Part shown: positions 10,978 through 26,966 of the stretch, one piece after another
Numbering within the stretch: position 1 is the stretch's first letter
Layout: every line of letters starts with the position of its first letter
NCBI RefSeq assembly: GCF_024449095.1
Contig: NZ_CP024628.1
Location: 806,001-870,000 of the forward strand
Origin: Vibrio coralliilyticus
GTDB taxonomy: Bacteria; Pseudomonadota; Gammaproteobacteria; Enterobacterales; Vibrionaceae
Direction of reading: 5' to 3'
Length of the DNA: 64,000 nt
Notes under the pieces: generated by a model
What the model was told of the DNA's origin: nothing
The model's database searches: none
The model's input: only the letters and a program-made list of their open reading frames with translations
Position numbers and translations under genes: made by a program

Positions 10978-12489
10978 ATGAAAATCAATAAGAAAAATAC
11001 AGTATTGCAGCTGAGTTTACTCACTGCGGCACTGAGCAGTGTTTATGTCACCCCTGTGTCAGCTCATGGCTATATGGTCTCACCACAAGATTATGCGAAT
11101 AGCTGTTACGAAAACACAACCACAGATCCGAGCTTGTGTAATAGCACTGTCAAAAATCAAAAAAATGAGATTAATAGCGGCAGTGCTGCTGGCGATCACC
11201 AAGCAGTCATCAAAGACGAAGAGCTATGTTCAGCTTCTAAAGGTGGCGATTACTCAGTACTTGATATCCCAAGTGCTAACCGATATGCCACTGAAATTGA
11301 GCTGGACGAAAATGGCGAATTTGAAATCACCTATATGCACACAGCAGTACACAAAACATGGTATTGGGATCTTTTCGTCACTCGTGACGGCTTTAATCCA
11401 GATACGGATAGGTTGACTTGGGCAGACTTGGAAAGGCTTACCGTTATTGACGGTAAAGGAGGTTTACCTGATCAGGTTATTAAGTACAAAGTAAAATGGC
11501 CAGAAGGCAAAACGGGCAAACACATTATCTACCAAGTTTGGCAACGCCCTAACCCAGATCATAAAGCTCATGAAGTTTTAGGAGTGCCGCCTCAAGATGT
11601 ATGGGACAGCCCAGAAGCCTTTTATAGCTGTGCCAACGTTATAGTCGGTGACCACGAACCGGGGCCAGACGAGTCACCATGGGTGAAAAGTGAAGAGTTT
11701 GCAACGGAAACAATCGACGTCGCTTCTGGAGACCAAGTCAAGGCTCGTTTGATGTATGAAGGTTATGAAGATTTCGAAGTCTTACAGGATATTACGCCTG
11801 AGAACGAAAAAAACGATCTTTGGAAGATTGACTTAGCAGAGTCCATCAACAGTAATCAGACTATTTCACAATATGTGCAAGTGGGTGTATTAAACGATGA
11901 AGATGAAGTGATCATCAGTGACGACCCATCAGAGAATAATATCTACTACACCAACGAGAATTGGTCACACTTGATTGAAAAAGTCGATCAGGATGCCAAT
12001 GACACCTCTATAGAGTGGTCAAACAAAGAAGCAGAGTATGAGTTAGCACCAGGCGAAACTCTTTCTATTCCTGTTGAGGTCACTGTTATCAATGGCAAAC
12101 AAGATGTTTACTCATATACAGCGACATTGAGAACCGTTGGCGGTGAGAAACCAGAACAAATCATCAAAGGAACAACAGAGCAGCCTGCATCTTTTGAAGT
12201 CAATGCATTAGGAAACTATAGCGTTCGAATTCTTAGTCAGGTTGATGGTTCCATTGAACAAGCCGCATACGAATTCTCCGTTGTTGAAGAACAAGGCGAG
12301 ATTGAGTATGACTACCTATACCCAGAAGGCTTTGGCAGCTACGTGGCCGGTGACGTGGTGAAGTTTGAAGGCGAAGGTATCTACGAATGTTTCGGCGACT
12401 GGGCTGCACACTGTAACGACGAAGCGTTCTTACCTGGTGTTGCCAGTGACCCTAACTGGGTCGATCAACAGTGGCGTAAGCTAGATTAA
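10978..12489 (+). CDS. gbpA: GbpA-type chitin-active lytic polysaccharide monooxygenase (AA10)
   Basis: A 503-residue secreted protein, similar in length to V. cholerae GbpA (485). The signal peptide ends VSA-H, so His30 becomes the N-terminal copper ligand. The second ligand is His125 in TAVHKTWYWD, matching the AA10 pattern TAxH, and Phe215 (AFYSC) fits the axial aromatic. Residues about 240-330 and 335-430 look like the GbpA middle domains, and the last 60 residues (YPEGFGSYVAGDVVKFEG..., W- and C-rich) a chitin-binding module. It oxidatively cleaves or binds chitin outside the cell. AGAGGA precedes the start. A redox gene follows. It could be a GbpA paralogue rather than the orthologue. 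Confidence 0.85.
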   Translation: MKINKKNTVLQLSLLTAALSSVYVTPVSAHGYMVSPQDYANSCYENTTTDPSLCNSTVKNQKNEINSGSAAGDHQAVIKDEELCSASKGGDYSVLDIPSANRYATEIELDENGEFEITYMHTAVHKTWYWDLFVTRDGFNPDTDRLTWADLERLTVIDGKGGLPDQVIKYKVKWPEGKTGKHIIYQVWQRPNPDHKAHEVLGVPPQDVWDSPEAFYSCANVIVGDHEPGPDESPWVKSEEFATETIDVASGDQVKARLMYEGYEDFEVLQDITPENEKNDLWKIDLAESINSNQTISQYVQVGVLNDEDEVIISDDPSENNIYYTNENWSHLIEKVDQDANDTSIEWSNKEAEYELAPGETLSIPVEVTVINGKQDVYSYTATLRTVGGEKPEQIIKGTTEQPASFEVNALGNYSVRILSQVDGSIEQAAYEFSVVEEQGEIEYDYLYPEGFGSYVAGDVVKFEGEGIYECFGDWAAHCNDEAFLPGVASDPNWVDQQWRKLD

Positions 12490-12540: not shown

Positions 12541-13659
12541 ATGTCGTATTACTTCAACGTCTTATTGGCTCTACTTTTGCTTTTACCTAGTGTCACCTTC
12601 GCAGAGGAGCCGATTAGTGCAATACAAGAGCTAGGCCGTCATCTGTTTTTTGATACTCGGTTATCCGTCAAAGAGAACAGAAGCTGCGCACTTTGTCACT
12701 CACCCACACATGGCTGGAGTAACACATTTACGAAAACCATCGACATTAATGGCAACCACAGCACGCTAAATACTCCTTCACTGCTCAATGTATCTCTCTT
12801 TACTCACTTTTCTCAGGCCGATCCCACTCGCAAGATGATCGACACTGCGATCACCAACCCAATGTTTTCGACTCACCCCATCGAAATGGGTATAACACCG
12901 AAAAAGTTGATCTCACGGATAGCTCAAGACAGTTGTTATCCATCGATGTTTGAACGTTCATTTGGTGATAAAAACATCAGCGTAGAGCGCATAGTACGGG
13001 CTCTAAAGCAGTACTTAACGCTGATCACTAGCCAAGAGTCACGCTACCTACGGTATAGGGATGGAGATATCACAGCCCTAACAAAACAGGAGCAACATGG
13101 CCTGCAGCTCTTCTATAGTGACAAACTCAACTGCTCAGCCTGTCATGGCGGCCCCTTGCTGAATCAACCTGTAAATACCCTAAGCCATTATCAAAATACG
13201 GGTCTCTACGGGGTACCTAACAAAAATGGGATGCTCTCCTACCCTATTGGTGAGCCTGGGGTAAGGCAATATACAAAACGATGGGAGGACGATGGGAAGT
13301 TTCGCATTCCTTCTTTAATCAATGTATCAAACACTGGGCCTTGGGGACATGACGGTAGCTTCCAATCATTGGAGTCCGTCATAGAGAGTTATGCCAGAGG
13401 CGGAAGAAAACTTAGCTATGGGCCGAATAAGGGCGATGGTTACCATCACCCGGCCAAAAGTACTCTAATTAATGGATTTAATATAACGACCAATGAGAAA
13501 AAAGCGCTCATTGCTTTTCTTCGCTCGTTATCTATCGACCAAGACTGGACACGCTATCCATTTAATTCACCATTCGGTTCCTCTGTTAGGACCAAGAATG
13601 AGCACAATTCAACACCATCATGCCTACATCAACAACAATCGGAAACAATATTAAGATGA
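12541..13659 (+). CDS. Di-heme cytochrome c peroxidase / MauG-family protein
   Basis: A 372-residue periplasmic protein: signal peptide at 1-21 (TFA-EE), first heme motif CALCH at 49-53 and second CSACH at 198-202. The order LGRHLFFDTRLS...CxLCH and NxGPWGHDGSFQSLESVI is standard for the bacterial di-heme peroxidase/MauG superfamily, which reduces peroxide or oxidises a partner protein. Hemes would be attached in the periplasm. It lies 51 bases after the LPMO gene in the same direction and overlaps the next gene by ATGA. A role in handling LPMO electrons or peroxide is inference. The start has a weak ribosome binding site. Confidence 0.85.
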   Translation: MSYYFNVLLALLLLLPSVTFAEEPISAIQELGRHLFFDTRLSVKENRSCALCHSPTHGWSNTFTKTIDINGNHSTLNTPSLLNVSLFTHFSQADPTRKMIDTAITNPMFSTHPIEMGITPKKLISRIAQDSCYPSMFERSFGDKNISVERIVRALKQYLTLITSQESRYLRYRDGDITALTKQEQHGLQLFYSDKLNCSACHGGPLLNQPVNTLSHYQNTGLYGVPNKNGMLSYPIGEPGVRQYTKRWEDDGKFRIPSLINVSNTGPWGHDGSFQSLESVIESYARGGRKLSYGPNKGDGYHHPAKSTLINGFNITTNEKKALIAFLRSLSIDQDWTRYPFNSPFGSSVRTKNEHNSTPSCLHQQQSETILR

Positions 13660-14141
13660 TACTAACACGCCCAATATTCATCAGCCTGACAACCGCTATC
13701 GCGCTTATTAGCCCTCAAGCCCTTGCCGATATGGATTCAGCACGCAACCAATATTTTGCTAAAGAATATCGTGCCCTATGTGAGCTACCAACCAACACAT
13801 TTGAAACCGCACAGTCACCCGATGAAGCTGCTCAACAAAGCTTGAGTGTTTCCACTCCCTTAGCGATCACACTTAAACTCAATAATGGTGGACAAGCTTA
13901 CCTAAATCTATCTGTTGAGAATTGGGATGAAAAGCTCATTGTCTTCCACAGCACGGGAATAAATATAGAAATGAAAGACGCGGATACAACAGGGCAAAAC
14001 ATTACTAACCAGCAATGCGATCAACCAGATATGACCATCACTCACATAAACACTCATGAATGGGGTAGCTACCCAGTCAAAGTTGTAGGCACACCTAATG
14101 AAACGATCACATTAAAGATTCACCAAGAACAAGATCGCTGA
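13656..14141 (+). CDS. Small periplasmic protein coupled to the di-heme peroxidase
   Basis: A 161-residue protein with a clear signal peptide (MILTRPIFISLTTAIALISP, cleavage after ALA). The frame opens at 13620, but the ATG at 13656 overlaps the peroxidase stop in an ATGA arrangement and directly begins the signal peptide. I recognise no family. The mature part has three cysteines and a beta-rich character (SVSTPLAITLKLNNGGQAYL; PVKVVGTPNETITLKI), compatible with a small beta-sandwich or a peroxidase partner. Translational coupling suggests it works with the peroxidase. Confidence 0.6.
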   Translation: MILTRPIFISLTTAIALISPQALADMDSARNQYFAKEYRALCELPTNTFETAQSPDEAAQQSLSVSTPLAITLKLNNGGQAYLNLSVENWDEKLIVFHSTGINIEMKDADTTGQNITNQQCDQPDMTITHINTHEWGSYPVKVVGTPNETITLKIHQEQDR

Positions 14142-14307: not shown

Positions 14308-17300
14308 ATGGCGACTAATGACAAAAAAGACAGAAAATCGAATGCTAACGTTAACAAGGAGGAAGCCCCCTCAAAGAACAAAACAGCGGCTAGTAAAGTT
14401 CGATTGTTCTCACGCCTAAACATTAAGGTTCCACTTCCTCGTGAGATCGCCATGATTCTGCCTTCTCTCATGCTAAGTAAAGAAACAGATAATGTTTCGA
14501 ATGAATCTCATACTGGTGAACAGCCATACGATTCAAGCTCTGTGGTAAAAAATGAAACAGTTCAAACAAGCCATGACACTCCAAATACTCCGGCGCCAAA
14601 AGCGAGTCTAAAGAGCGAAGAAGCCGTTGCTGAAATGGAAGAAAAGGGGCATCTCCAAGACTCTTTGTCTGTAACGCCATCTCATCATCTATCAACTAAA
14701 CAACATCCGCTTGTGCATCAGATTACCAACCATGTCCCCCACACTGACACACCAAACACCGTTACTACAAAACCGTCAACACCACTGCAAACGCCAGCGC
14801 TAACTTCGCAATCTCAAATAACCTATATAGATGAGACAATGAAAGGTAAATACGGGTCTTTACATATCAATAGCGACGGTAGTTACACATTCACACTGGA
14901 TCCAAAATCTCCAGCTTACATTGCTCTACAGAAACAGGAGCCAGGAACTGATACATTCACTGTTCACTTGTCGAATGGAACAGATGTTGTCATTCAAGTT
15001 CCGGTTCAGGGGCACCAAGATTCACCAAGCATATCAGGTGATCTTAGAGGTAGTGTTATTGAAGATCGTAATGTCGACTCACATGGCTTGATCACTACCT
15101 CGGGCAAAATCGATGTGATTGACCCTGACCATGATGAGAGCGCCGTTCAAGCTGAAACTCTCAAAGGGAAATTTGGTACATTAACAATCGACGCCCAAGG
15201 TCACTGGCAGTATCAGGTCAACAATTCGCAAAGCAACATTCAAGCACTAACCAGTCAAACTGAATTGCATGAATCGTTTACCATCCACACTAAAGATGGC
15301 ACATCTCAAGTCGTCAACATGTCGATTGGTGGCACCGACGATCACGCATCGATTAGCGGTGGATTTGGCTCCATTACTGAAGATAAACAAACCTTTGTGA
15401 GTGGTCAGCTATCAATACAAGACCCAGATGCCAATCAAGATTACTTTATTGCTGGTCAACAAGCGGGGGTATATGGTGCTTTAGAGTTCAACAAAGACGG
15501 TTCATGGCGCTACATTCTCGATAATAATAAAGCGGCAGTTCAATATCTCAATCAATCTGAACACCACCAAGAAGTATTTACCATTCAGTCTGCGGCCGGA
15601 ACAAGACATTCAATCACCATCAAAGTTGAAGGAAGCAATGACGTTCCCACCCTCTCCGCTCAATCTCATGCCGTAACCGAAGATGGAAAGCGGTTAACGG
15701 GACAAATGCAAGGTCATGATATCGACCATGGTGCAACATTAACCTATTCAATAGCTCAACCGATTGATGGCTTAACCTTCAATCCAGATGGTAGTTATAG
15801 CTTTGACCCAACCAATGCGGCTTATCAACACCTTACAAGTGGGCAAAAAGATACGCTCACTATTCCTGTTACAGTCACTGATGAACACGGCGCGAGTGCC
15901 ACGCAAAACCTTGAGATAGTGATTACTGGTGCTAACGATGCTGCCAAAGTGACGGGTGTTGATACAGGTAACGTTCATGAAAATCAGGCGGGTCAGGATA
16001 TGTCACCGGACTATGCCCAACCTGGCATGTCGAAAATTAGTCATGATGCTCTATATGCAAGTGGCCAACTGTCCATTGCCGACCTAGATGCAGGTGAAGC
16101 CAAGTTCGATACTAAAGGCGGCATCTATTCCTATCACGGCCAGTATGGCCACCTCCTACTTCGAGAGGATGGCCATTGGGACTACAAGGTTGCAGCAGGC
16201 CAGACTGATTGGCTAAGGCAAGGTGCGACTACCACTGTGGGAACAACCATAGATAAGTTAGGCGCAGGTGAAACACTAACCGATACCATCACCATTCAAA
16301 CCAAAGATGGAACGACTCACGACATTGTCATTACCATCCATGGCGACAACGATGCGCCTTATGTTTCGAGTGAAGTGCAACTCAACTCGGGCAAAGAGGA
16401 TATCGCTCAAACTATTACAGCAGCAGATTTGTTGGCTAATACCATCGATGTTGACCATAACGACCAAGGCCAACTGAGTATCGCCAATCTCATCGCCGAC
16501 CATGGCTCAATTAAAGATAACCAAGACGGTACTTATACTTTCACTCCCGATAAAGACTATAACGGACAAGTACACTTCACCTACGATGTGAAAGACGCAC
16601 ATTCTGGTGTGACGCATACTGGGGCAAACATGACCTTAGCTCCAGTAGGTGACGCTGCAACAATTACGGGTACCGATACCGGTTCAATAACCGAAGATAA
16701 GCACGTTCTCCCCGATTCAATGCATCGTATTCAAGTGGTTGGCAGTCTTTCCGTATCCGACCCTGATGCTGGCGAAGACCACTTTAAAGCATCGGGAGCT
16801 TTTGGACATGAAAGGGCCATCAGTGACCCCTTCCAAGGAGAAATGCATATCGACCGTCATGGCAATTGGGATTACGTTTTGGCAAATGGTAACCCGGCGG
16901 TCCAAGCCCTTAAGCAAGGTGAAACCAAAGATGTCATCTACGAGGTTCACTCTGCGGATGGCACACCGCACCGTATTACGATTACCGTTACAGGCACCGA
17001 TGATGCTCCAACGGTGTCGTCATCAGTCACATTGACTGCGGGAAAAGAAGACACAGTCGTGACCTTGCAAGCCTCTGACTTACTTGCTCATGCCAGTGAT
17101 ATTGACCATGACGCACAACTCAGCATACACAATCTCTCTGTCGACCACGGACAAGTTATAGACAACCATGATGGCACTTTCCGTTTTACACCTGATAAGG
17201 ATTACACTGGTCCAGTCCAGTTTAGCTACCAAATACAAGATGAACATGGTGCATCTGTACAGCAAACCGCCTCGATGAACTTAGCGCCGCAAGATGATGC

Positions 17301-20300
17301 TGCGGTGTTTAGTGGGCAAGATACAGGGAACGTGACCGAGGACTATAAACCATACTCAGCGGTCAACGGTAATTATGCATTCACAATTCAAGCTCAAGGT
17401 TCGTTAACAGCGACTGATCCTGACCTAAACGAATCAGGTTTTGAGTTTAAAACGTTAGTTACTTCGTCATTACACCCTGAGTGGGCGCCGTATACCTCAT
17501 CATTAGGTGGCAAACTTGAAATAACTCCTGATGGCAGTTGGTCTTACTATATCGATAATCGGAAACCTGAAGTTCAACAGTTGGGAAAAGATGAAACCTT
17601 AACGGACACCGTTACCGTTCATTCTAAAGATGGTACCACCCACGATATCGTCATCACCATTCATGGAACCAACGATGCACCAACTATATCGAGTGAGGTA
17701 CAACTTAATTCGGGCAAAGAGGACATCGCTCAAACCATTACCGCTACGGAGTTATTAGCAAATGCAATCGATGTTGATCACAACGACCAAGGTCAACTGA
17801 GTATCGCCAATCTCGTTGCCGACCATGGTTCAATCAAAGATAACCACGACGGTACTTATACCTTTACCCCCGATAAAGACTACAACGGGCAAGTACATTT
17901 CACCTACGATGTCAAAGACGCGCATTCAGGTGTGACGCATACGGGGGCGACCATGACCTTGGCTCCAGTAGGTGACGCTGCAACAATTACGGGTACCGAT
18001 ACCGGTTCAATAACCGAAGATAAGCACGTTCTCCCCGATTCAATGCATCGTATTCAAGTGGTTGGCAGTCTTTCCGTATCCGACCCTGATGCTGGCGAAG
18101 ACCACTTTAGAACATCGGGAGCTTTTGGACATGAAAGGGCCATCAGTGACCCCTTCCAAGGAGAAATGCACATCGACCGTCATGGCAATTGGGATTACGT
18201 TTTGGCAAATGGTAACCCGGCGGTCCAAGCCCTTAAGCAAGGTGAAACCAAAGATGTTATCTACGAGGTTCACTCTGCGGATGGTACTCCGCACCGTATT
18301 ACGATTACTGTTACAGGCACCAATGATGCCCCGACGGTGTCGTCATCAGTCACATTGGCTGCGGGAAAAGAAGACACAGCGGTGACCTTGCAAGCCTCTG
18401 ACTTACTTGCTCATGCCAGTGATATTGACCATGACGCACAACTGAGCATACACAGCCTCTCTGCCGACCACGGACAAGTTACAGACAACCATGATGGTAC
18501 TTTCCGTTTTACACCTGATAAGGATTACACTGGTCCAGTCCAGTTTAGTTACCAAGTACAAGATGAGCATGGTGCGTCTGTACAGCAAACCGCCTCCATG
18601 AACTTAGCGGCGGTGAATGATGCTGCAACGATCGGAGGAAAAGATACGGGCGATGTCACCGAAGACCGTAATTTGGCTTCGAGCGTGTCAGGATTAGCCG
18701 GACAGTTGGACACATATGGCACTCTAACAGTCACGGACCCAGATGCGGGCCAATCGGAGTTTGATGCCAAGCTGCTAGCTAACTCGTATCATACCCAGCT
18801 TGGTGGACGTTTGTACATCAATGACAGAGGCGATTGGGGGTACTCAATTGACAACAGCAAACCAGCTATCCAACAACTTGGGCAAGGGGAAACGCTCACT
18901 GATACCGTTACCGTTCACTCCAAAGATGGCACCACTCACGACATTGTCATCACCATCCATGGCGACAACGATGCGCCTTATGTTTCGAGTGAAGTGCAAC
19001 TCAACTCGGGCAAAGAGGACATCGCTCAAACCATTACAGTTAGGGAGTTATTAGCAAATGCAGTCGATGTTGATCACAACGACCAAGGTCAACTGAGTAT
19101 CGCCAATCTCGTTGCCGACCATGGCTCAGTCAAAGATAACCACGACGGTACTTATACATTTACCCCCGATAAAGACTACAACGGTCAAGTTCACTTTACC
19201 TACGATGTGAAGGATACAAACGGGGGTGAAGTCCGCACAGGGGCTAGTACTACCCTCTTACCAACTAACGATGCTGCAGTATTTAGTGGTCAAGATACAG
19301 GCGATGTAACGGAAGATTACAAACCCAATGCTTCTGTTGTCGGAAACTATTCATACACAATCCAAGCTCATGGTATGCTCACAGCGACAGATTCAGATCT
19401 TGGCGAATCAGGATTTGAATTTAACACATTAATATCTGTACCTATGCACCCTGAATGGGCACCTTACACATCATCGTTAGGCGGTAAACTCGAAATAGGT
19501 CCAAAAGGCGATTGGGGTTATTACATTGATAATCGTAAGCCTGAAATACAACAACTAGGTGAGAATGAAACCTTGACCGATACCGTGACCGTACACTCAA
19601 AGGATGGTACTACCCATGACATTGTGATCACAATTCATGGCACTAATGACGCCCCTGCTGTATCAAGTGAGGTTCAGTTAAACTCTGGCAAAGAAGGCAC
19701 CGTTCAAACCATCACCGCGTCTGATTTGTTAGCAAACGCTAGTGATATTGATAGTAACGACAAGGGACAATTATCGGTTGACAACTTAGTTGCTGACCAT
19801 GGCTCCATTCGAGATAACCAAGACGGGACTTATACGTTCACCCCCAATAAAGGTTACAACGGTCAAGTACACTTTACCTACAATGTCCAAGATGCACACT
19901 CTGGTGCAACACACGCCAGTGCAAGTATGACGCTAACATCACTAGCTCCCACGCCAGTTAGCCAATCTGATGAGACGGTAGATCAACAAGTACCAACCGT
20001 TGATGTCATACTTTCTCCTGATGAAGTTACCGATGAACAAACCGCTCCGCCAACAGGTGAAGGCAATTCACACCACGGCGCAGCTGCATATCTCTCTGCT
20101 CTCGGCTTAAACTCCGAACAAGCTTCTACAGAAACATCAACACCAACACCATCTGAGTTGCCAAATGATATTGATATTGTATTGACTGAAGGAGAACATA
20201 CTGAGCTCCAAGAGCAAGCCGTGGATACAGACATGTTAGAACCAAAACATGACCAAACTGATGACAGCGATAACAAGCATCAGGATCTAATAAACCCTGA

Positions 20301-20349
20301 CGAACACCATGATCATACTGACCCTAGCCACTTAATTGATCCTTATTAA
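14308..20349 (+). CDS. Giant VCBS-repeat adhesin, probable type I secretion substrate
   Basis: A 2,013-residue acidic repeat protein without an N-terminal signal peptide. Residues 1-170 are a low-complexity head with a short hydrophobic patch (EIAMILPSLML). From about 180 to 1,880 there are roughly eight VCBS domains, each opening ITGTDTGSITEDK or similar and ending GTNDAP, alternating with about six cadherin-like/tandem-95 domains (LNSGKEDIAQTI ... FTPDKDYNGQVHFTYDV). Such Asp-rich repeats bind calcium and rigidify surface adhesins. The last 130 residues are acidic with AAAYLSALGLNSEQ and probably hold the secretion signal; no RTX nonapeptides are visible. AGGGAA precedes the start. Export genes converge from the other side. 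A biofilm or attachment role is inferred. Confidence 0.85.
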   Translation: MATNDKKDRKSNANVNKEEAPSKNKTAASKVRLFSRLNIKVPLPREIAMILPSLMLSKETDNVSNESHTGEQPYDSSSVVKNETVQTSHDTPNTPAPKASLKSEEAVAEMEEKGHLQDSLSVTPSHHLSTKQHPLVHQITNHVPHTDTPNTVTTKPSTPLQTPALTSQSQITYIDETMKGKYGSLHINSDGSYTFTLDPKSPAYIALQKQEPGTDTFTVHLSNGTDVVIQVPVQGHQDSPSISGDLRGSVIEDRNVDSHGLITTSGKIDVIDPDHDESAVQAETLKGKFGTLTIDAQGHWQYQVNNSQSNIQALTSQTELHESFTIHTKDGTSQVVNMSIGGTDDHASISGGFGSITEDKQTFVSGQLSIQDPDANQDYFIAGQQAGVYGALEFNKDGSWRYILDNNKAAVQYLNQSEHHQEVFTIQSAAGTRHSITIKVEGSNDVPTLSAQSHAVTEDGKRLTGQMQGHDIDHGATLTYSIAQPIDGLTFNPDGSYSFDPTNAAYQHLTSGQKDTLTIPVTVTDEHGASATQNLEIVITGANDAAKVTGVDTGNVHENQAGQDMSPDYAQPGMSKISHDALYASGQLSIADLDAGEAKFDTKGGIYSYHGQYGHLLLREDGHWDYKVAAGQTDWLRQGATTTVGTTIDKLGAGETLTDTITIQTKDGTTHDIVITIHGDNDAPYVSSEVQLNSGKEDIAQTITAADLLANTIDVDHNDQGQLSIANLIADHGSIKDNQDGTYTFTPDKDYNGQVHFTYDVKDAHSGVTHTGANMTLAPVGDAATITGTDTGSITEDKHVLPDSMHRIQVVGSLSVSDPDAGEDHFKASGAFGHERAISDPFQGEMHIDRHGNWDYVLANGNPAVQALKQGETKDVIYEVHSADGTPHRITITVTGTDDAPTVSSSVTLTAGKEDTVVTLQASDLLAHASDIDHDAQLSIHNLSVDHGQVIDNHDGTFRFTPDKDYTGPVQFSYQIQDEHGASVQQTASMNLAPQDDAAVFSGQDTGNVTEDYKPYSAVNGNYAFTIQAQGSLTATDPDLNESGFEFKTLVTSSLHPEWAPYTSSLGGKLEITPDGSWSYYIDNRKPEVQQLGKDETLTDTVTVHSKDGTTHDIVITIHGTNDAPTISSEVQLNSGKEDIAQTITATELLANAIDVDHNDQGQLSIANLVADHGSIKDNHDGTYTFTPDKDYNGQVHFTYDVKDAHSGVTHTGATMTLAPVGDAATITGTDTGSITEDKHVLPDSMHRIQVVGSLSVSDPDAGEDHFRTSGAFGHERAISDPFQGEMHIDRHGNWDYVLANGNPAVQALKQGETKDVIYEVHSADGTPHRITITVTGTNDAPTVSSSVTLAAGKEDTAVTLQASDLLAHASDIDHDAQLSIHSLSADHGQVTDNHDGTFRFTPDKDYTGPVQFSYQVQDEHGASVQQTASMNLAAVNDAATIGGKDTGDVTEDRNLASSVSGLAGQLDTYGTLTVTDPDAGQSEFDAKLLANSYHTQLGGRLYINDRGDWGYSIDNSKPAIQQLGQGETLTDTVTVHSKDGTTHDIVITIHGDNDAPYVSSEVQLNSGKEDIAQTITVRELLANAVDVDHNDQGQLSIANLVADHGSVKDNHDGTYTFTPDKDYNGQVHFTYDVKDTNGGEVRTGASTTLLPTNDAAVFSGQDTGDVTEDYKPNASVVGNYSYTIQAHGMLTATDSDLGESGFEFNTLISVPMHPEWAPYTSSLGGKLEIGPKGDWGYYIDNRKPEIQQLGENETLTDTVTVHSKDGTTHDIVITIHGTNDAPAVSSEVQLNSGKEGTVQTITASDLLANASDIDSNDKGQLSVDNLVADHGSIRDNQDGTYTFTPNKGYNGQVHFTYNVQDAHSGATHASASMTLTSLAPTPVSQSDETVDQQVPTVDVILSPDEVTDEQTAPPTGEGNSHHGAAAYLSALGLNSEQASTETSTPTPSELPNDIDIVLTEGEHTELQEQAVDTDMLEPKHDQTDDSDNKHQDLINPDEHHDHTDPSHLIDPY
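16300..17285 (+). repeat. Long internal repeat of the adhesin gene, copy 1
   Basis: This segment is repeated in frame 1,323 bases (441 codons) downstream. The stretch from about 16630 to 17270 is nearly identical at the DNA level to 17953-18593, with only scattered substitutions, while flanking domains are more diverged. This indicates recent duplication or gene conversion. Confidence 0.85.
17623..18608 (+). repeat. Long internal repeat of the adhesin gene, copy 2
   Basis: Second copy of the 441-codon unit. Changes from copy 1 include Lys-Ala to Arg-Thr in the DHFKASGAF/DHFRTSGAF segment and a few synonymous changes. A third, more diverged half-unit begins near 18920. Confidence 0.85.
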
Positions 20350-20422: not shown

Positions 20423-21718
20423 TTAACGCTCACCAAAGGCGACACTAACATTGGTATAGATCGGTTTCCAAAGATACTGAAATACGGACTTTTCGCCTGT
20501 CGTAATATCTGCTTCTCCTGTCATACCCGGTAGAATTGAAAACCTTTCAGGATCATTGTGAAAATAGGGTTCGTCAACTGAGATAAAGACTTCATAGAAG
20601 ATTTCACCTCGCTCATTCTGACTGGTTGTCGGTGAAATTTTTTCTACTTCTCCAATTAAAGCTCCGAAGCGACTGTAATCGAACGCATCAACTTTAACTC
20701 GGGCTGGTTGTCCTTCATGAACAAAGCCAATATCCCTAGGTGATAGCTTAGCTTTAAAGTCCGCTTTCCCCGTTAAAGGGACGATTTCTACCACTACGCC
20801 ACCAGGTTGAATTACACCACCAACTTGAGTACTGGGAACGCTTTGTACCAGCCCTTTCAATGGTGAGGTCACAACTGTGTTTGTCACTTTCGCCTCACTC
20901 GAACGCACTCTCGCATTTAAAGCAGACAAATCTGAAACAGCTTTTGAGCGTTCATCACTCAGTTTTGAACGAGACTCTGCCAGCAGCTGTTCTATTTTTT
21001 GCTCGTTGGTCGAAGCTTGCTTCTCAAGGACGGAGCGCTTACCTATTGCCTCTGCTATTTGCTGCTCAATACTTGCCATTTTTTGTCTCATCTCTAGCAC
21101 TCTTAATCGAGAGATGTTCCCTGCCTTGAAGCCCTTTTCGAGTATATCGAGTTCTTGCTTGGTCGCCTGTAATTGCTTCTCGTAAGAGGGTAAGGCTTTT
21201 TTCACCGAACGAAGCTGCTCTGCAATTTGTTCACTATCCTTTTCTAATACCACCCGCTGTTGATAAAACAAGGCTTTTTGTGCACTCAACTGAGCCAGCT
21301 GCTCACTCACTAAAGCCGGATATTCTGCGGAATACAAAGAAAAATCAGGCTCTCTTTGATCAAGCAAAGCGTTCATTCTTTCTACACTAAGCGACAGTGT
21401 AACTTGTTGGGATTTAAGCTCATCCAAAGTTGTCTGTTGAAACGTTGCATCAAACTCCACTAGCGGTTGTCCCGCTTCTACTAAATCTCCTTTCTTCACC
21501 AGCACACGTTTGAGTTTTCCTCCAATTTCGCTTTGTAACACCTGCCGCTCCCCCTCAGGAATGACTGTCCCTTTCGCTTTGGCAATTTCATCCACTTGAG
21601 TTACCAGTGACCAAACAACGAAAGTGACCACGCAAATGGCTACCGCCCACGTCGCAATCAATAATGATTTTGACGTTACACTCGACTCCACTAGTTCACC
21701 GTATTTATGTTCAGCCAT
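20423..21718 (-). CDS. HlyD-family type I secretion periplasmic adaptor
   Basis: A 431-residue membrane fusion protein: short cytoplasmic N-terminus, one membrane helix at about 20-42, a lipoyl half-motif (GKLKRVLVKKGDLVEAGQPLVEFD, about 66-89), a long coiled coil (about 90-270) and the C-terminal beta barrel ending in a conserved R. It links the inner-membrane ABC unit to a TolC-type outer-membrane channel. The start at 21718 was chosen because GAGG lies 7 bases upstream; a start at 21730 lacks one. It overlaps the upstream ABC gene by 8 bases, so the three export genes are one operon. TolC is not encoded here. Confidence 0.9.
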   Translation of the reverse strand: MAEHKYGELVESSVTSKSLLIATWAVAICVVTFVVWSLVTQVDEIAKAKGTVIPEGERQVLQSEIGGKLKRVLVKKGDLVEAGQPLVEFDATFQQTTLDELKSQQVTLSLSVERMNALLDQREPDFSLYSAEYPALVSEQLAQLSAQKALFYQQRVVLEKDSEQIAEQLRSVKKALPSYEKQLQATKQELDILEKGFKAGNISRLRVLEMRQKMASIEQQIAEAIGKRSVLEKQASTNEQKIEQLLAESRSKLSDERSKAVSDLSALNARVRSSEAKVTNTVVTSPLKGLVQSVPSTQVGGVIQPGGVVVEIVPLTGKADFKAKLSPRDIGFVHEGQPARVKVDAFDYSRFGALIGEVEKISPTTSQNERGEIFYEVFISVDEPYFHNDPERFSILPGMTGEADITTGEKSVFQYLWKPIYTNVSVAFGER

Positions 21719-23744
21719 TGGATACCTCATTGATAAATTGTTGTTGCTCTGTTTCTTCTTGTTTTATTGGACCTGCATACGCTACGGAGCCATCATTTAA
21801 TACGACCACCTTATCCGCTAGTTTAATTAAATCAGGATCATGAGAAGTGAAGATGATGGTTGATTGTCCTCTTTTACGGTGAACAAAATCTGTGAATACC
21901 TGTTTCGCCTTAGGGTGATAATCTGGAACAGGGTTATCCATTAACATGAGTTTGTAATCATAAACTAGTGCCTTAGCATCAATAAGGACTTGAGCAATCG
22001 TACCAGATAGAATATCGAACAAGCTGTCCGGTATGAGTGAGCTAATCACCGTATCTAAACCTTTAGGCAGCGAGTCATACCATGCGCTCCCCCCCACAAG
22101 AGCGAGTGCATCAACCATCTTCTGATCGGTCACCTGCTTCCCATCAGCTAGCCATTCCCTTACCGACAGAGAGAGTAAGTCTGGATAGGCTGCGCGGATG
22201 AAACACCAATGACGGAATAGTTGTGGGTCATATTGAGACAAATTCACCCCTTCAAGCTCAATCGCACCATTCTGTGCAACTTGAAGCCCCGCTAGAGATT
22301 CTAGCAACGTAGATTTACCACTACTGGATGGTCCTGTAATAGCAACAACTTCTCCTCTGCCTATCTCAAAGCTCACCGCGGAGAGAGCAGGACGTATCTG
22401 TTTTGGATATCGAAGCGTCAGTTGGTCTATTTTAATGGAAGGGGCATGATCAGGTAATGCGTGATGCTGATAGCTGAAATCACGCTCTGAAGGTTGGGCA
22501 AGTAAGCGATTAATTTGCAATTTAGACTGATTAAAGCTGGCAAACCTTGACGCACTGTTGGCTAGCATTTGAGCTGGCCCAGTAATACGAGAAATCAACA
22601 TCATCGCGGCGATTAACCCACCTGGACTCAATACCTCTTCGAAAATCAAACCAATTCCAAGCCCCATAACAGCGATTGTTGAGCATAAGGAGATAGCGTA
22701 ATAAATAGAGGTGTACCTGTGCTGTCTAATCGCTTGATTAAACCCAACTTTTGAAGCAAGGAAGTTTGCCTTATCAAAACGTTTCAACCAATACGGCGCA
22801 AAACCAGAGGTGCGTAAATAAACCAGTTTTAAGGAGAGCTCATTAATAAGATTCTGTCGATTGGTACCTGCTATAGTCGACTGCATTGAGCTCTTACTAG
22901 AATTAGCCAACGCGTGCTTGGAAAATATGGCATACAATATAAGCGAAACAATGGGTACTAAGACAAGCCAACCGCCCAAAATCCCGATAGCAAGAATAAA
23001 AATAACAACGAACGGGATATCAAACAGCGCTCCTCCCAACGGCCCCGACAAAAGGCTCGATACCCTTTCCGATAAGAGAATCTGATTCTGTTGGTTGAAC
23101 GCGATCGATTGCTGATTCTGAGTGTACGAATTTTTAAGAGTTTTTTTGACTAATGCTTGAGAAACCTCTCGGCTTAAACGATTAGCTAAGCTGACCAATA
23201 CTTTTCCGCGTAAGGTTCTAAGCAGCCCCATCATGACAAAAAGAAGCGCTGCACCAATGGTAATTCCCAATAACTCATGCGCTGCATCTCCTCCAATCAC
23301 ATGGTCATAAATTGCCATAGTGATAAATGGAAGACCTAAGGCAAAAACATTCGTGAAGAAGCTTACAATAAGTAATTTCGGTAGCATTGGCTTAAATGCA
23401 TCGAGCCTTTCACCAGTCCAATCCGAAGGGTGCTTTTCTAATGGCAACCCCAACACAACCACGTAAAAGTCGGCAGGCTGGCTTTCCACTTCCAAATTTA
23501 CGCCATCACACACTTCGATACGCCCATCTTTGTAAACAGCAAGATAATACTTCGAGCTCTGATCCCGGTTAAGCTTAGGAACAATTTCATAGGGAAGATA
23601 AATCCGGTCAAACAACGATAACAATTCATCGATATTCTCAAGCCCATTTTCATCAATCCACTGTTTAGAAAATAATTGTATATTGGTACTGACTTCCAAG
23701 CCTTTTAGCAAAGCGATTCCGGCTTGTTCGTAACTGTTCATCAT
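21711..23744 (-). CDS. Type I secretion ABC subunit A with intact Walker A but altered signature and Walker B
   Basis: A 677-residue ABC exporter of type I secretion layout: N-terminal 130 residues like a degenerate C39 peptidase domain, six membrane segments at about 135-410, then the ATPase. Walker A is intact (GPSSSGKST, 471-479). The signature is LSGTIAQ near 579 instead of LSGGQ, and Walker B ends MLMDNP, so the catalytic Glu is Asn. The switch His is kept (FTSHDPD). The start overlaps the preceding ABC gene by ATGA. It presumably forms a heterodimer with that subunit. Its cargo is probably the convergent adhesin. Confidence 0.85.
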   Translation of the reverse strand: MMNSYEQAGIALLKGLEVSTNIQLFSKQWIDENGLENIDELLSLFDRIYLPYEIVPKLNRDQSSKYYLAVYKDGRIEVCDGVNLEVESQPADFYVVVLGLPLEKHPSDWTGERLDAFKPMLPKLLIVSFFTNVFALGLPFITMAIYDHVIGGDAAHELLGITIGAALLFVMMGLLRTLRGKVLVSLANRLSREVSQALVKKTLKNSYTQNQQSIAFNQQNQILLSERVSSLLSGPLGGALFDIPFVVIFILAIGILGGWLVLVPIVSLILYAIFSKHALANSSKSSMQSTIAGTNRQNLINELSLKLVYLRTSGFAPYWLKRFDKANFLASKVGFNQAIRQHRYTSIYYAISLCSTIAVMGLGIGLIFEEVLSPGGLIAAMMLISRITGPAQMLANSASRFASFNQSKLQINRLLAQPSERDFSYQHHALPDHAPSIKIDQLTLRYPKQIRPALSAVSFEIGRGEVVAITGPSSSGKSTLLESLAGLQVAQNGAIELEGVNLSQYDPQLFRHWCFIRAAYPDLLSLSVREWLADGKQVTDQKMVDALALVGGSAWYDSLPKGLDTVISSLIPDSLFDILSGTIAQVLIDAKALVYDYKLMLMDNPVPDYHPKAKQVFTDFVHRKRGQSTIIFTSHDPDLIKLADKVVVLNDGSVAYAGPIKQEETEQQQFINEVSNG

Positions 23745-25345
23745 GCTGCCGCCCCTTGCTTCTCTTCCACAATCATAGTTCTATCCGTAAGTTCAATGAT
23801 TGCCGGATGATGAGAAACCAACACAATCATCCGCCCTTGAGTTTTTTCCTCTCGTAACACTCGATTAAGGGCTTCTAACCCATCAAGGTCGAGAGAGGCA
23901 TCAGGCCTATCAAGAACCACTAATGGTGAGGTTGCAGCGAGCTGAGCAGCTAGGTTTAGGAGCTTGATATCGCCCATACTTAGTGGGCTCGAAAAAGCGT
24001 GGCCAACTTTCGTTTCTAGCCCGTCACTTAATTGAGCTAGTTTGCTACTTACCCCAAGCTTTTGGGCATATTGTTGTGCCCTTTCGGTACGCTCTGGATC
24101 AAAACCACACAAATTGTCGAGTAAAGATCCGCTGACTAACTGCCCTTTAACGCCAGCGTATGAACTAATAGATGACAGAGATTCTATTGAAGCACTGTCA
24201 TGATTTATGAGAAAATCTCCGCTTTGAGCCCCGTCAACTCCAGGAATCACTCCAGCAAAGAAACTGTCGATGTGCCTTTCATCACTACTCAAATGAATGA
24301 TCTCCCCTCTAGCCATTTCAAAAGAGACACTGTATGTGTGGCTATAACGTTGGGCGGTTAGGTTACATACGGCAATTGCATTCACTGATTTAATATCGCC
24401 TACTTCAAATGAATGTTGAGGCAAGTTACGAATTCGACCAATAGCCTGATTAGCGGAATGAATGGAATTCAGTTTCACACGCATGCCAATGAGGGCACTT
24501 AAAGGGGCAATCGCACGCCCCGACAAAATCGAGCATGCAGCTAAACCGCCTGTTGTAAGATCTCCATCAAGAACCCATATGCTACCGGTGATCACTATCA
24601 CTACCGATGTCATTAAGGACGCTAATTGAATAAATTCTAGTGCAAAGGCGTTTTGTTGCTCTTCACTAGATTTGGATAAGAACCTTTCATCGTTAGTGCG
24701 TTTAAACTGACGATAAAGCCTCGACTCCACAGCTTGTCGTTTGATGCCTTGCAGAGTTTGTCCGAGTAGCAGCATAAATCCCTTTCGGTCTTGCTCTTTC
24801 TCTAACGCGTCTTCACCTAAACGCTTAGATTTTATCGAGGCCAGCCAAACGACTGCACTGGCTAAGACCCACACAGCAATAGGAACAAGAACTAAGCTGC
24901 TACCAATGTAATAAACTAAGCCGAGAAATAGGAGAGCAAAGGGAAAATCGATAAAACCGGAAACCATACCCCCTGAATACCACTCTTTCACTCTCGATAT
25001 AGACGATAAGCCATTATCAACACTTGACGCTCCTAGCATGCGTAGTTCATTAGGCTTGGCATTAGTCACGGCTGAAACAAGTTGATCAAAGGTCTCTTTT
25101 TCCGTATTGCTTGCTGCAGCGGATAGTAACCAACTTCGCACATAACGAATGAATGATTCCAATAAAACGGCAGTACATGCTCCAACGATTAGTAATGTTG
25201 CCGTACCGTAGCTCTGGTTCGGCAGGATGCGATCGTAAATTTGCAACACCGTCAATGGAACGGCAAGTGATAGAAGATTAATTAGAATAGAGGGTACCAT
25301 CACCCTCCCAATGACATCTTTATTGATCGTCTGCGTCAGCTGCAT
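23741..25345 (-). CDS. Type I secretion ABC subunit B lacking Walker A
   Basis: A 534-residue ABC exporter subunit without a C39-like domain. Six membrane segments occupy about 15-300. In the ATPase part the P-loop position reads LSSDERHID (near 350), with no Gly-Lys-Ser/Thr, and Walker B reads VVLDRPD, with Arg for the catalytic Glu. The signature-like LSMGD (near 455) and the switch His (LVSHHPA) remain. The start at 25345 has GGGGAG 6 bases upstream; longer frames from TTG 25375 or ATG 25366 lack this. First gene of the export operon. It resembles the non-equivalent partner seen in two-ABC systems such as RtxB/RtxE, but more degraded. Confidence 0.82.
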   Translation of the reverse strand: MQLTQTINKDVIGRVMVPSILINLLSLAVPLTVLQIYDRILPNQSYGTATLLIVGACTAVLLESFIRYVRSWLLSAAASNTEKETFDQLVSAVTNAKPNELRMLGASSVDNGLSSISRVKEWYSGGMVSGFIDFPFALLFLGLVYYIGSSLVLVPIAVWVLASAVVWLASIKSKRLGEDALEKEQDRKGFMLLLGQTLQGIKRQAVESRLYRQFKRTNDERFLSKSSEEQQNAFALEFIQLASLMTSVVIVITGSIWVLDGDLTTGGLAACSILSGRAIAPLSALIGMRVKLNSIHSANQAIGRIRNLPQHSFEVGDIKSVNAIAVCNLTAQRYSHTYSVSFEMARGEIIHLSSDERHIDSFFAGVIPGVDGAQSGDFLINHDSASIESLSSISSYAGVKGQLVSGSLLDNLCGFDPERTERAQQYAQKLGVSSKLAQLSDGLETKVGHAFSSPLSMGDIKLLNLAAQLAATSPLVVLDRPDASLDLDGLEALNRVLREEKTQGRMIVLVSHHPAIIELTDRTMIVEEKQGAAA

Positions 25346-26204: not shown

Positions 26205-26966
26205 TTATTTTTCACAGTAACCAGTACCGTAACGTTGAGAATTTGCCTTTCGACCATTTGGGCCTACTGAGTAAAAAGTAGTGATCTCATCGCCTTTTAC
26301 ACTCACAATCACTGCGTAGTGTTCAGGATGGTCATTGGTTTGTGGGATTTTATGGAAACAACTCCTTCTATCCGCTAGGTCAAAGTAACCTTTGGTGGCT
26401 TGATAAAGAATTTCATCTGCATTCATTTCCATGTTGTAACCGTTGACAGGCTTCAACTTCCATTTGCTTTCATTGTTGAGATAGCTCGTAGGAATTGAGT
26501 AAATCCCCTTTTCCGGCACAACCTCATTGCCCGAACCAAAACATTTATCATTGTTTGGTGGACACATAGAAATGACGCCCATTTCGTATAGTTCTTTATA
26601 TCTTGGGGCATAATGTAACCCGCCTAGACTACCGTCACTTTCTCTCTCTCCACAGAATATATGGTCAAACCCATCATTCTTGGTCCACAATGTTACGAGC
26701 TTTTCTATGTTTAAAGATTCATCAATAGATAGCAGTTTCTTTGTGATATCTGGATAATTTTCAAATAAAGATTGTAGGTCCTGTTCAGATACACCACTTC
26801 CCCATTCTCCACATATTCTAAGTACGTCTTTATCAATGGATTTGTTTTTAAATGTATATTCAGGAGCGAAAGCCGTATTAGGGTCATCATCAAAAAATGG
26901 GACTTGCTGGGCATGAACATTGATGGCTGTGAAAAGAAGTGCCAATGATGATATTGCTAATTTCAT
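26205..26966 (-). CDS. Secreted EndoU/XendoU-family nuclease-like protein
   Basis: A 253-residue protein with a signal peptide (residues 1-19, VHA-QQ). The core FDHIFCGE ... GGLHYAPRY places His102 and His118 16 residues apart, the spacing of the catalytic pair in eukaryotic XendoU; the third residue could be Lys168 or Lys170. EndoU enzymes cleave RNA at uridines. Seven or eight cysteines in the mature part suggest disulfides in the periplasm or outside. AGGGAA precedes the start. It could be a secreted effector, or a scavenging nuclease. No immunity gene is recognised beside it, although the 112-residue gene is near. The family call is by motif only. Confidence 0.65.
   Translation of the reverse strand: MKLAISSLALLFTAINVHAQQVPFFDDDPNTAFAPEYTFKNKSIDKDVLRICGEWGSGVSEQDLQSLFENYPDITKKLLSIDESLNIEKLVTLWTKNDGFDHIFCGERESDGSLGGLHYAPRYKELYEMGVISMCPPNNDKCFGSGNEVVPEKGIYSIPTSYLNNESKWKLKPVNGYNMEMNADEILYQATKGYFDLADRRSCFHKIPQTNDHPEHYAVIVSVKGDEITTFYSVGPNGRKANSQRYGTGYCEK

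Follow-up and report, generated by a model that had tools for sequence, protein, structure and literature searches.

In the window analyzed here, a stretch of 64,000 nucleotides from Vibrio coralliilyticus (contig NZ_CP024628.1 of assembly GCF_024449095.1, positions 806,001 to 870,000 of the forward strand), two overlapping genes code for the ATP-binding cassette (ABC) subunits A and B of a putative type I secretion system. The catalytic acid was found to be missing at both of the nucleotide sites that the two subunits would form together. The alignments make a strong case for one preserved ATP-binding site without a catalytic acid, and the pair is judged from its sequence to be a genuine variant of the type I secretion exporter that is unusual, conserved and under selection.

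Organization of the exporter genes

The exporter genes are located on the minus strand in the order B, A and HlyD-type adaptor. In the following list, TMD and NBD denote the transmembrane and the nucleotide-binding domain.

23741..25345, minus strand: subunit B, ABC exporter half of 534 aa with TMD and NBD and without N-terminal extension, numbered from the ATG at 25345
21711..23744, minus strand: subunit A, ABC exporter half of 677 aa with an N-terminal extension of ~105 aa (CLD-like by position), TMD and NBD
20423..21718, minus strand: HlyD-type membrane fusion (adaptor) protein, 431 aa from its likely start (TIGR01843)

The genes overlap by short stretches, the A/B overlap being ATGA. All three reading frames are open and are preceded by sequences that resemble ribosome binding sites when judged by eye, which agrees with the intact, coupled genes described in the initial annotation. 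The adaptor probably starts at 21718 rather than at 21730, with GAGG upstream and a resulting length of 431 aa that recurs in several relatives. With a score of 376.6 bits for TIGR01843 (cut-off 208.65), it is a HlyD-type adaptor encoded together with its exporter, as in type I secretion systems. The TolC-type outer channel could be provided by three proteins of the same genome scoring above the TIGR01844 cut-off, all of which are encoded outside the window.

Both ABC subunits have the type I exporter fold and are nearest to HlyB and PrtD in phmmer and Foldseek searches. The best Foldseek matches were HlyB/PrtD for the B model and HlyB for the A model; the AlphaFold models are weak (mean confidence 59.1 for B and 68.1 for A) and were used for the overall fold only. 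The LssB/LapB model TIGR03375 was the best NCBIfam model for A (294.2 bits) and B (232.6 bits), both far below its curated cut-off of 693.1, which places neither protein in that subfamily.

Nucleotide sites of the A/B pair

The dimer of ABC NBDs contains two composite sites. A would pair with B as a heterodimer, in which site 1 consists of the Walker A, Walker B and H-loop of A together with the signature and D-loop of B, and site 2 of the reverse combination. The relevant positions are the following.

22308..22334, minus strand: A Walker A GPSSSGKST (residues 471-479), site 1, kept
22191..22193, minus strand: A Ala518 in place of the Q-loop Gln, from alignments
21996..22010, minus strand: A degraded signature LSGTI (579-583, within LSGTIAQ 579-585), site 2
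21933..21935, minus strand: A Asn604 in place of the catalytic Glu of site 1, in MLMDNP with D603-N604, from alignment
21840..21842, minus strand: A H-loop His635 (TSHDP), site 1, kept
24260..24286, minus strand: B residues 354-362 in the place of Walker A with Asp360 for the Lys, site 2, dead, from alignment to HlyB and LapB
23969..23983, minus strand: B signature LSMGD (455-459), facing the Walker A of A in site 1, kept
23906..23908, minus strand: B Arg480 at the position of the catalytic Glu, in LDRPD with D479-R480, site 2
23888..23896, minus strand: B D-loop S484-L485-D486, lining site 1, kept

In B, the stretch LSSDERHID (352-360) contains no Walker A Lys; Q402 and, in the window, the H-loop His512 are also retained. 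Alignment to the solved structures of PrtD (for A) and HlyB (for B) placed Asn604 and Arg480 at the catalytic Glu with no local gap, and residues S354-F362 of B under the P-loop of HlyB with D360 under the Lys; B was also aligned with LapB. The degraded motifs therefore lie where the initial annotation had placed them, and intact motifs elsewhere in A or B, which it had named as a possible refutation, are ruled out by these alignments.

In the window pair, site 2 has neither the Walker A Lys nor the catalytic Glu, and its signature is missing the second Gly, so that one composite site is degraded. Of the two composite sites, only site 1 has a P-loop and, as had been proposed, this site is without the Glu as well: the catalytic Glu that degenerate one-site heterodimers have at their remaining site is replaced by Asn604.

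Conservation of the degenerate sites in the family

Two overlapping and hence not independent sets of relatives were compared. The database rows comprise the best 120 of 935 matches for A and the best 120 of 335 for B, each plus the query. The loci comprise 49 true relatives (L021-L069) among 61 loci, 12 of which (L070-L081) were excluded as general ABC matches. They yielded 47 A and 45 B rows, window included. The A rows of L043, L068 and L069 are not included because of their broken frames. B is not counted for five loci: it is broken in L043 and L069, unrecognisable in L042 and, although of full length, missed by a position filter in L036 and L044.

The Walker A Lys of A (K477) is present in 121/121 listed database rows and 47/47 locus rows. 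Position 604 of A is N in 113 of the 121 listed database rows, followed by S (3), G (2), T (1), I (1) and one gap; in the loci it is N in 44/47 rows, the others being C, T and S, next to an invariant D603 (47/47). An acidic residue at this position was found in none of the 120 aligned listed database rows and in none of the 47 locus rows. The signature of A has no Gly at position 582 in any of the 47 locus rows.

Likewise, no Lys was found at B 360 in the 121 listed database rows or the 45 locus rows. Position 480 of B is R in 104, K in 15 and M in 1 of the listed database rows (one gap), and R in 23 and K in 12 of the locus rows, with ten others (Q 3, L 2, C 2, T 1, H 1, E 1). The sole B protein with Glu at this position (L054) is also without the P-loop Lys. 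The signature of B is retained, with S456 in 119/121 and G458 in 120/121 listed database rows, and S456 in 45/45 and G458 in 39/45 locus rows (otherwise Ser); L485 and D486 of the D-loop occur in 45/45 locus rows. The degenerate pattern is common to the family and, as far as these alignments reach, is therefore a family trait and not chance.

The conservation of whole motifs was compared with that of random columns of the same NBD (50,000 draws). Site 1 is more conserved than random NBD columns: only 0.0038 of the draws were as conserved as the A part (12 columns) and 0.0014 as the B part (8 columns). For site 2 the values were 0.74 (A part) and 0.73 (B part), indicating no extra conservation. 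Since site 1 is conserved and site 2 is not, selection keeps one ATP pocket built from both chains, the odd Asn included, and has let the other go. This asymmetry matches the prediction for a heterodimer with one ATP-binding site.

Selection on the exporter genes

The ratio of nonsynonymous to synonymous substitution rates (dN/dS) was determined for locus pairs with a dS of 0.1-1, which share species and are thus not independent. The median was 0.025 for the TMD and 0.034 for the NBD of A, 0.033 for the TMD and 0.072 for the NBD of B, and 0.097 for the N-terminal part of A, in which one pair reaches 1.20. The A match is free of internal stops in 73 of 74 carrier genomes of the genus; in G002 and G014 it begins only at residue 107 or 82.

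The statement in the initial annotation that the genes are selected rather than decayed is borne out by the medians for TMDs and NBDs (0.025-0.072), which indicate purifying selection, and by these 73 matches. Decaying pseudogenes would account for the degraded motifs, the A frames broken in 3 of the 49 loci, the locus without recognisable B and the stops in the only A match of one genus genome (G086). This explanation is already contradicted by the stop counts, by median dN/dS values that do not exceed 0.097 in any part tested and by a conservation residue by residue at one site only, and its probability appears negligible.

The faster evolution of the B NBD compared to the B TMD, together with the loss of both catalytic acids, could also point to a pair that is no longer an exporter and serves as a regulatory or anchoring scaffold for the neighbouring adhesin. 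The TMD is, however, the most conserved part of each chain, the adaptor is orthodox, and an adhesin-like open reading frame (ORF) is present in 47/49 loci, making such a scaffold very improbable.

A sister clade with the catalytic acid

Relatives of A (E <= 1e-70) were found in 33 of 394 searched genomes of the order, 16 of them being of the window kind (>= 48% identity) and 17 showing 32-36% identity. With the most distant family member as query, a class-wide search at E <= 1e-70 recovered only the own genome (1/369). The 17 more distant relatives belong to a sister clade with members in Agarivorans, Shewanella, Colwelliaceae, Corallincola, Psychromonas and a few Vibrio. In all 14 of the 17 sister loci that were read, the gene order is B, A and adaptor, A is 31-36% identical and has a Walker A and a Glu at position 604, and B is without the P-loop Lys; a degraded A signature was found as well.

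For the proteins of this clade, the best 120 of 573 database matches were analyzed; the counts exclude P0352, which is longer than 1000 aa, and P0317-P0319, which have 376-419 aa and for which no match to an ABC domain was listed. The residue at A 604 is E in 70 and D in 6 of the 76 listed sister rows (acid in 76/76), and E in 34, D in 3 and A in 1 of the 38 outer relatives among the matches listed (acid in 37/38). Two-ABC relatives, namely those of the sister clade, thus keep the catalytic acid at site 1. The Asp found in six of the sister proteins (P0308-P0312, P0315) could represent an intermediate state.

A tree was built from 44 hand-picked rows (16 window-kind, 20 sister, 8 outer). Each group falls on one side of a branch in it, with support values of 100/100 for the window kind and 100/99 for the sister clade; the tree tool warned of long branches to the outer rows. 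A first tree, with A, B, LapB and other exporters, had placed both A and B on long stems. Because the sister clade, whose site 2 is equally dead, keeps the acid in all 76 rows, the last catalytic acid of a one-site exporter most likely disappeared in a single event on the stem of the window clade, with the rest of the pocket kept. The two clades differ at 41 further positions under a 90% rule, so the exchange of the acid did not come alone.

Proposed mechanism and alternatives

A type I adhesin exporter that is run by ATP binding, with hydrolysis very slow or absent, is the explanation towards which the sequence evidence leans slightly. The A/B heterodimer and the HlyD-type adaptor would form the inner-membrane complex of a type I secretion system, with the TolC-type channel encoded elsewhere, and would export the neighbouring giant VCBS adhesin. 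Site 1 would be the one working pocket, made up of Walker A, Walker B Asp and H-loop of A and of the signature and D-loop of B. Binding of ATP to this site would close the NBDs and give the power stroke. With Asn in the place of the catalytic Glu, hydrolysis would be expected to proceed very slowly, perhaps helped only by His635. The complex would then cycle slowly and remain for long in the ATP-closed state, which would serve an adhesin that is held at the surface. Such a pocket, retained for binding and not for rapid hydrolysis, fits a slow or rarely firing machine for a long adhesin that may be needed in few copies only. The deviant site of Pdr5 has an Asn at the same place, and its authors describe hydrolysis there as one that cannot be accelerated (PMC8421411). 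For TmrAB, two articles report that one round of translocation is driven by ATP binding and that hydrolysis is required to reset the transporter (PMC7205462, PMC13040083).

Several points weigh against this mechanism. Biochemical data for the A/B pair were not found in the open-access literature. The single stroke of TmrAB concerns peptides, whereas an adhesin of 2013 residues presumably needs many steps. The Asn is fixed, though it would be costly if the reset needs hydrolysis, so that the cost should be small or the reset should be made by another route. In some places site 1 is imperfect, with Gln at A H635 in 5/47 and Ser at B G458 in 6/45 locus rows. Furthermore, the Q-loop Gln, which has a role in coupling, is also lost in A, and even a slow normal cycle is therefore less certain.

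The loss of this Gln, the absence of a catalytic acid from either site in the window and the finding that A 604 is never acidic in the 120 aligned listed rows would also agree with a strictly non-hydrolytic mechanism, in which ATP binding at site 1 assembles or gates a conduit and the adhesin is driven by the proton motive force together with its folding on the outside of the cell. The H-loop His, known for its role in hydrolysis, is nevertheless kept in 42/47 locus rows. The driving force is putative, and the flanking ORFs of the relatives were compared with the window proteins only. The secretion of HlyA has been reported to depend on the proton motive force as well as on ATP hydrolysis (PMC3034196). 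Taken together, this mechanism is considered rather unlikely. A hydrolysis-free ABC exporter for protein secretion, which would have descended from a one-site heterodimer by losing the last acid and in which ATP binding at the single preserved pocket gates or latches the conduit, with the giant adhesin moved by the proton motive force and its outside folding, perhaps one molecule per complex, is a tentative possibility on the doubtful side.

Ordinary hydrolysis, by way of Asn604, a neighbouring residue or water, would make the pair a normal one-site exporter. An exchange of Glu for Gln at the catalytic place is a usual means of blocking hydrolysis, which argues against this, and the Asp at A 608 (40/47 rows) is part of the D-loop and faces the other site. 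On the other hand, the listed motifs of site 1 are kept except for the Glu and the Q-loop Gln, and a review reports evidence of substrate-assisted catalysis with a Glu-His dyad for HlyB-type ATPases (PMC8277102). Asn334 of Pdr5 is described as non-accelerating (PMC8421411), and ordinary hydrolysis is regarded as unlikely for the window pair.

Distribution and other ABC exporters in the carriers

Subunit A was found in 74 of 227 genomes of the genus (E <= 1e-100). One genome (G158) has two copies, the second being 60% identical with one internal TGA. The sister-type A occurs in 8/227 genomes (E <= 1e-110), in four of them (G047, G063, G098, G155) together with the window kind; at the same threshold it was not found in the own genome nor in 70 of the 74 carriers.

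The genome of the window also contains a LapB-type ABC protein (L002) with consensus motifs. LapB orthologues were found in 208/227 genus genomes (E <= 1e-150), namely in 74/74 carriers and 134/153 non-carriers (Fisher's exact test, 3.8e-4, not corrected for kinship). When five reduced or incomplete genomes without LapB were dropped, the value was 2.8e-3, again without correction for kinship. Among eleven further carriers, two of which (G229 and G804) look like one genome, ten (Aliivibrio, Vibrio, Psychromonas-like) have LapB-like proteins at 46-78% identity. In the Ferrimonas carrier, the LapB match reaches only 27%, and a consensus PrtD-like exporter (L090) is present.

The consensus LapB-type protein and its association with the carriers would support a helper ATPase, for instance L002, which does the hydrolysis through a shared complex or by hand-over of the substrate. 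Against this stand the weak match in Ferrimonas (even though L090 is present there), the absence of the related acid-keeping pair from 70/74 genus carriers and the fact that the exporter unit has its own adaptor. LapB is hence not a universal partner, and a helper is considered improbable. The initial annotation had named slow export, ATP binding only and another ATPase side by side; these are unequal, and slow or binding-only operation is favoured.

The neighbouring adhesin and the locus context

The probable substrate of the exporter is encoded next to the adaptor gene, in convergent orientation to the exporter genes.

14308..20349, plus strand: VCBS/cadherin-repeat adhesin of 2013 aa
20017..20346, plus strand: conserved C-terminal 110 residues of the adhesin, with GAAAYLxALG[IL], DIDIVL and a tail rich in Asp, Glu and His

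The alignment of 47 adhesin ends, window included, revealed the GAAAYLxALG[IL] stretch and, in 46/47, a DxDIV-like motif. Asp, Glu and His together account for 44% on average of the last 50 residues, compared to 20% of the whole window adhesin. This conserved end is likely to be the export signal. The RTX nonapeptide pattern that was applied did not match the window adhesin, which thus differs from RTX adhesins of the LapA type; eight relative adhesins show one match each. A LapG-like motif [TPA]AA[GT] was not found in its first 200 residues.

The order B, A and adaptor was found in 48 of the 49 relative loci, as broken pieces in L043, L068 and L069. Of the two loci without an adhesin-like ORF, both (L023, L049) reach the contig edge soon after the adaptor. 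This ORF is on the adaptor side in 46 of 47 loci and only upstream of B in L059. V. superstes and V. breoganii (L059, L060) have a large adhesin-like ORF upstream of B, L060 having one on each side. For the other flanking ORFs, the comparison covered the proteins of the window only. In L042 (V. lentus), A is present and B is unrecognisable; an ORF of 393 aa at this place has no match to the window proteins. In V. aestivus (L043:6305), an ORF of 530 aa weakly similar to A (21%) is located upstream of the broken exporter genes.

Six wider loci were analyzed, five of the sister clade (L138-L142) and one of the window kind (L143, Psychromonas-like). An adhesin-like ORF was present near the adaptor in each of them; in L142 the two are separated by a further ORF. 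In the sister loci this ORF is co-directional with the exporter genes, whereas it is convergent in the window, and its N-terminus, where readable (L138, L140, L141), is different.

Further genes were noted in the surroundings. An MbnH-like di-haem enzyme (12541-14141, plus strand; TIGR04039, 273.1 bits, below cut-off) is encoded upstream of the adhesin, and its ORF overlaps that of a small protein with a signal-like N-terminus (judged by eye). A GbpA-like lytic polysaccharide monooxygenase is encoded at 10978-12489 (plus strand). Near the exporter genes, a protein with an EndoU nuclease domain (PF14436) is encoded at 26205-26966 (minus strand); it was the best match of no ORF in the 49 relative loci.

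The mfpABC locus of V. parahaemolyticus was considered as a candidate for the same locus and was set aside on the basis of its published description, not by sequence comparison. It has been called homologous to brpT-cabABC, in which cabABC serves the matrix protein CabA (PMC8268162; also PMC5552913).

Comparison with known systems

Type I secretion is commonly assumed to involve the hydrolysis of ATP. About one third of the sampled genus genomes (74/227) keep a subunit whose pocket is apparently fit for ATP binding only, beside a large adhesin. With the acid-keeping sister clade as a natural control, it becomes testable which steps of ABC protein export need ATP binding and which need hydrolysis. 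In the open-access articles that were searched, a description was found neither of an exporter with the acid missing at both sites nor of the B-A-adaptor locus of the window.

The unit resembles the MARTX system RtxB/RtxD/RtxE in having two ABC proteins and one adaptor, both ABC proteins of MARTX being reported to appear necessary (PMC3034196); its neighbour is a VCBS/cadherin adhesin and not a MARTX protein. LssB/LapB is the nearest model for A and B, but both are far below its cut-off, and the LapB of the same genome has consensus motifs. The sister systems share the gene order, an A that is 31-36% identical, a B without Walker A Lys and the degraded A signature, and differ from the window in the catalytic acid of A, which is kept in all 76 listed rows.

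Heterodimeric exporters with one degenerate site include TM287/288 and TAP. In TmrAB one composite site is likewise degraded and the other is built from both chains; it retains the catalytic Glu E523 (PMC8277102), where the window has Asn. The degenerate heterodimeric exporters described in two articles retain one hydrolytic site (PMC7756269, PMC8277102), and a review states for full-length human ABC proteins that it is always NBS1 which is degenerate (PMC7756269). NBS1 of Pdr5 has the same Asn for the catalytic Glu as site 1 of the window. The NBS2 of Pdr5 is canonical (PMC8421411, PMC7756269), whereas the window pair has no such second site.

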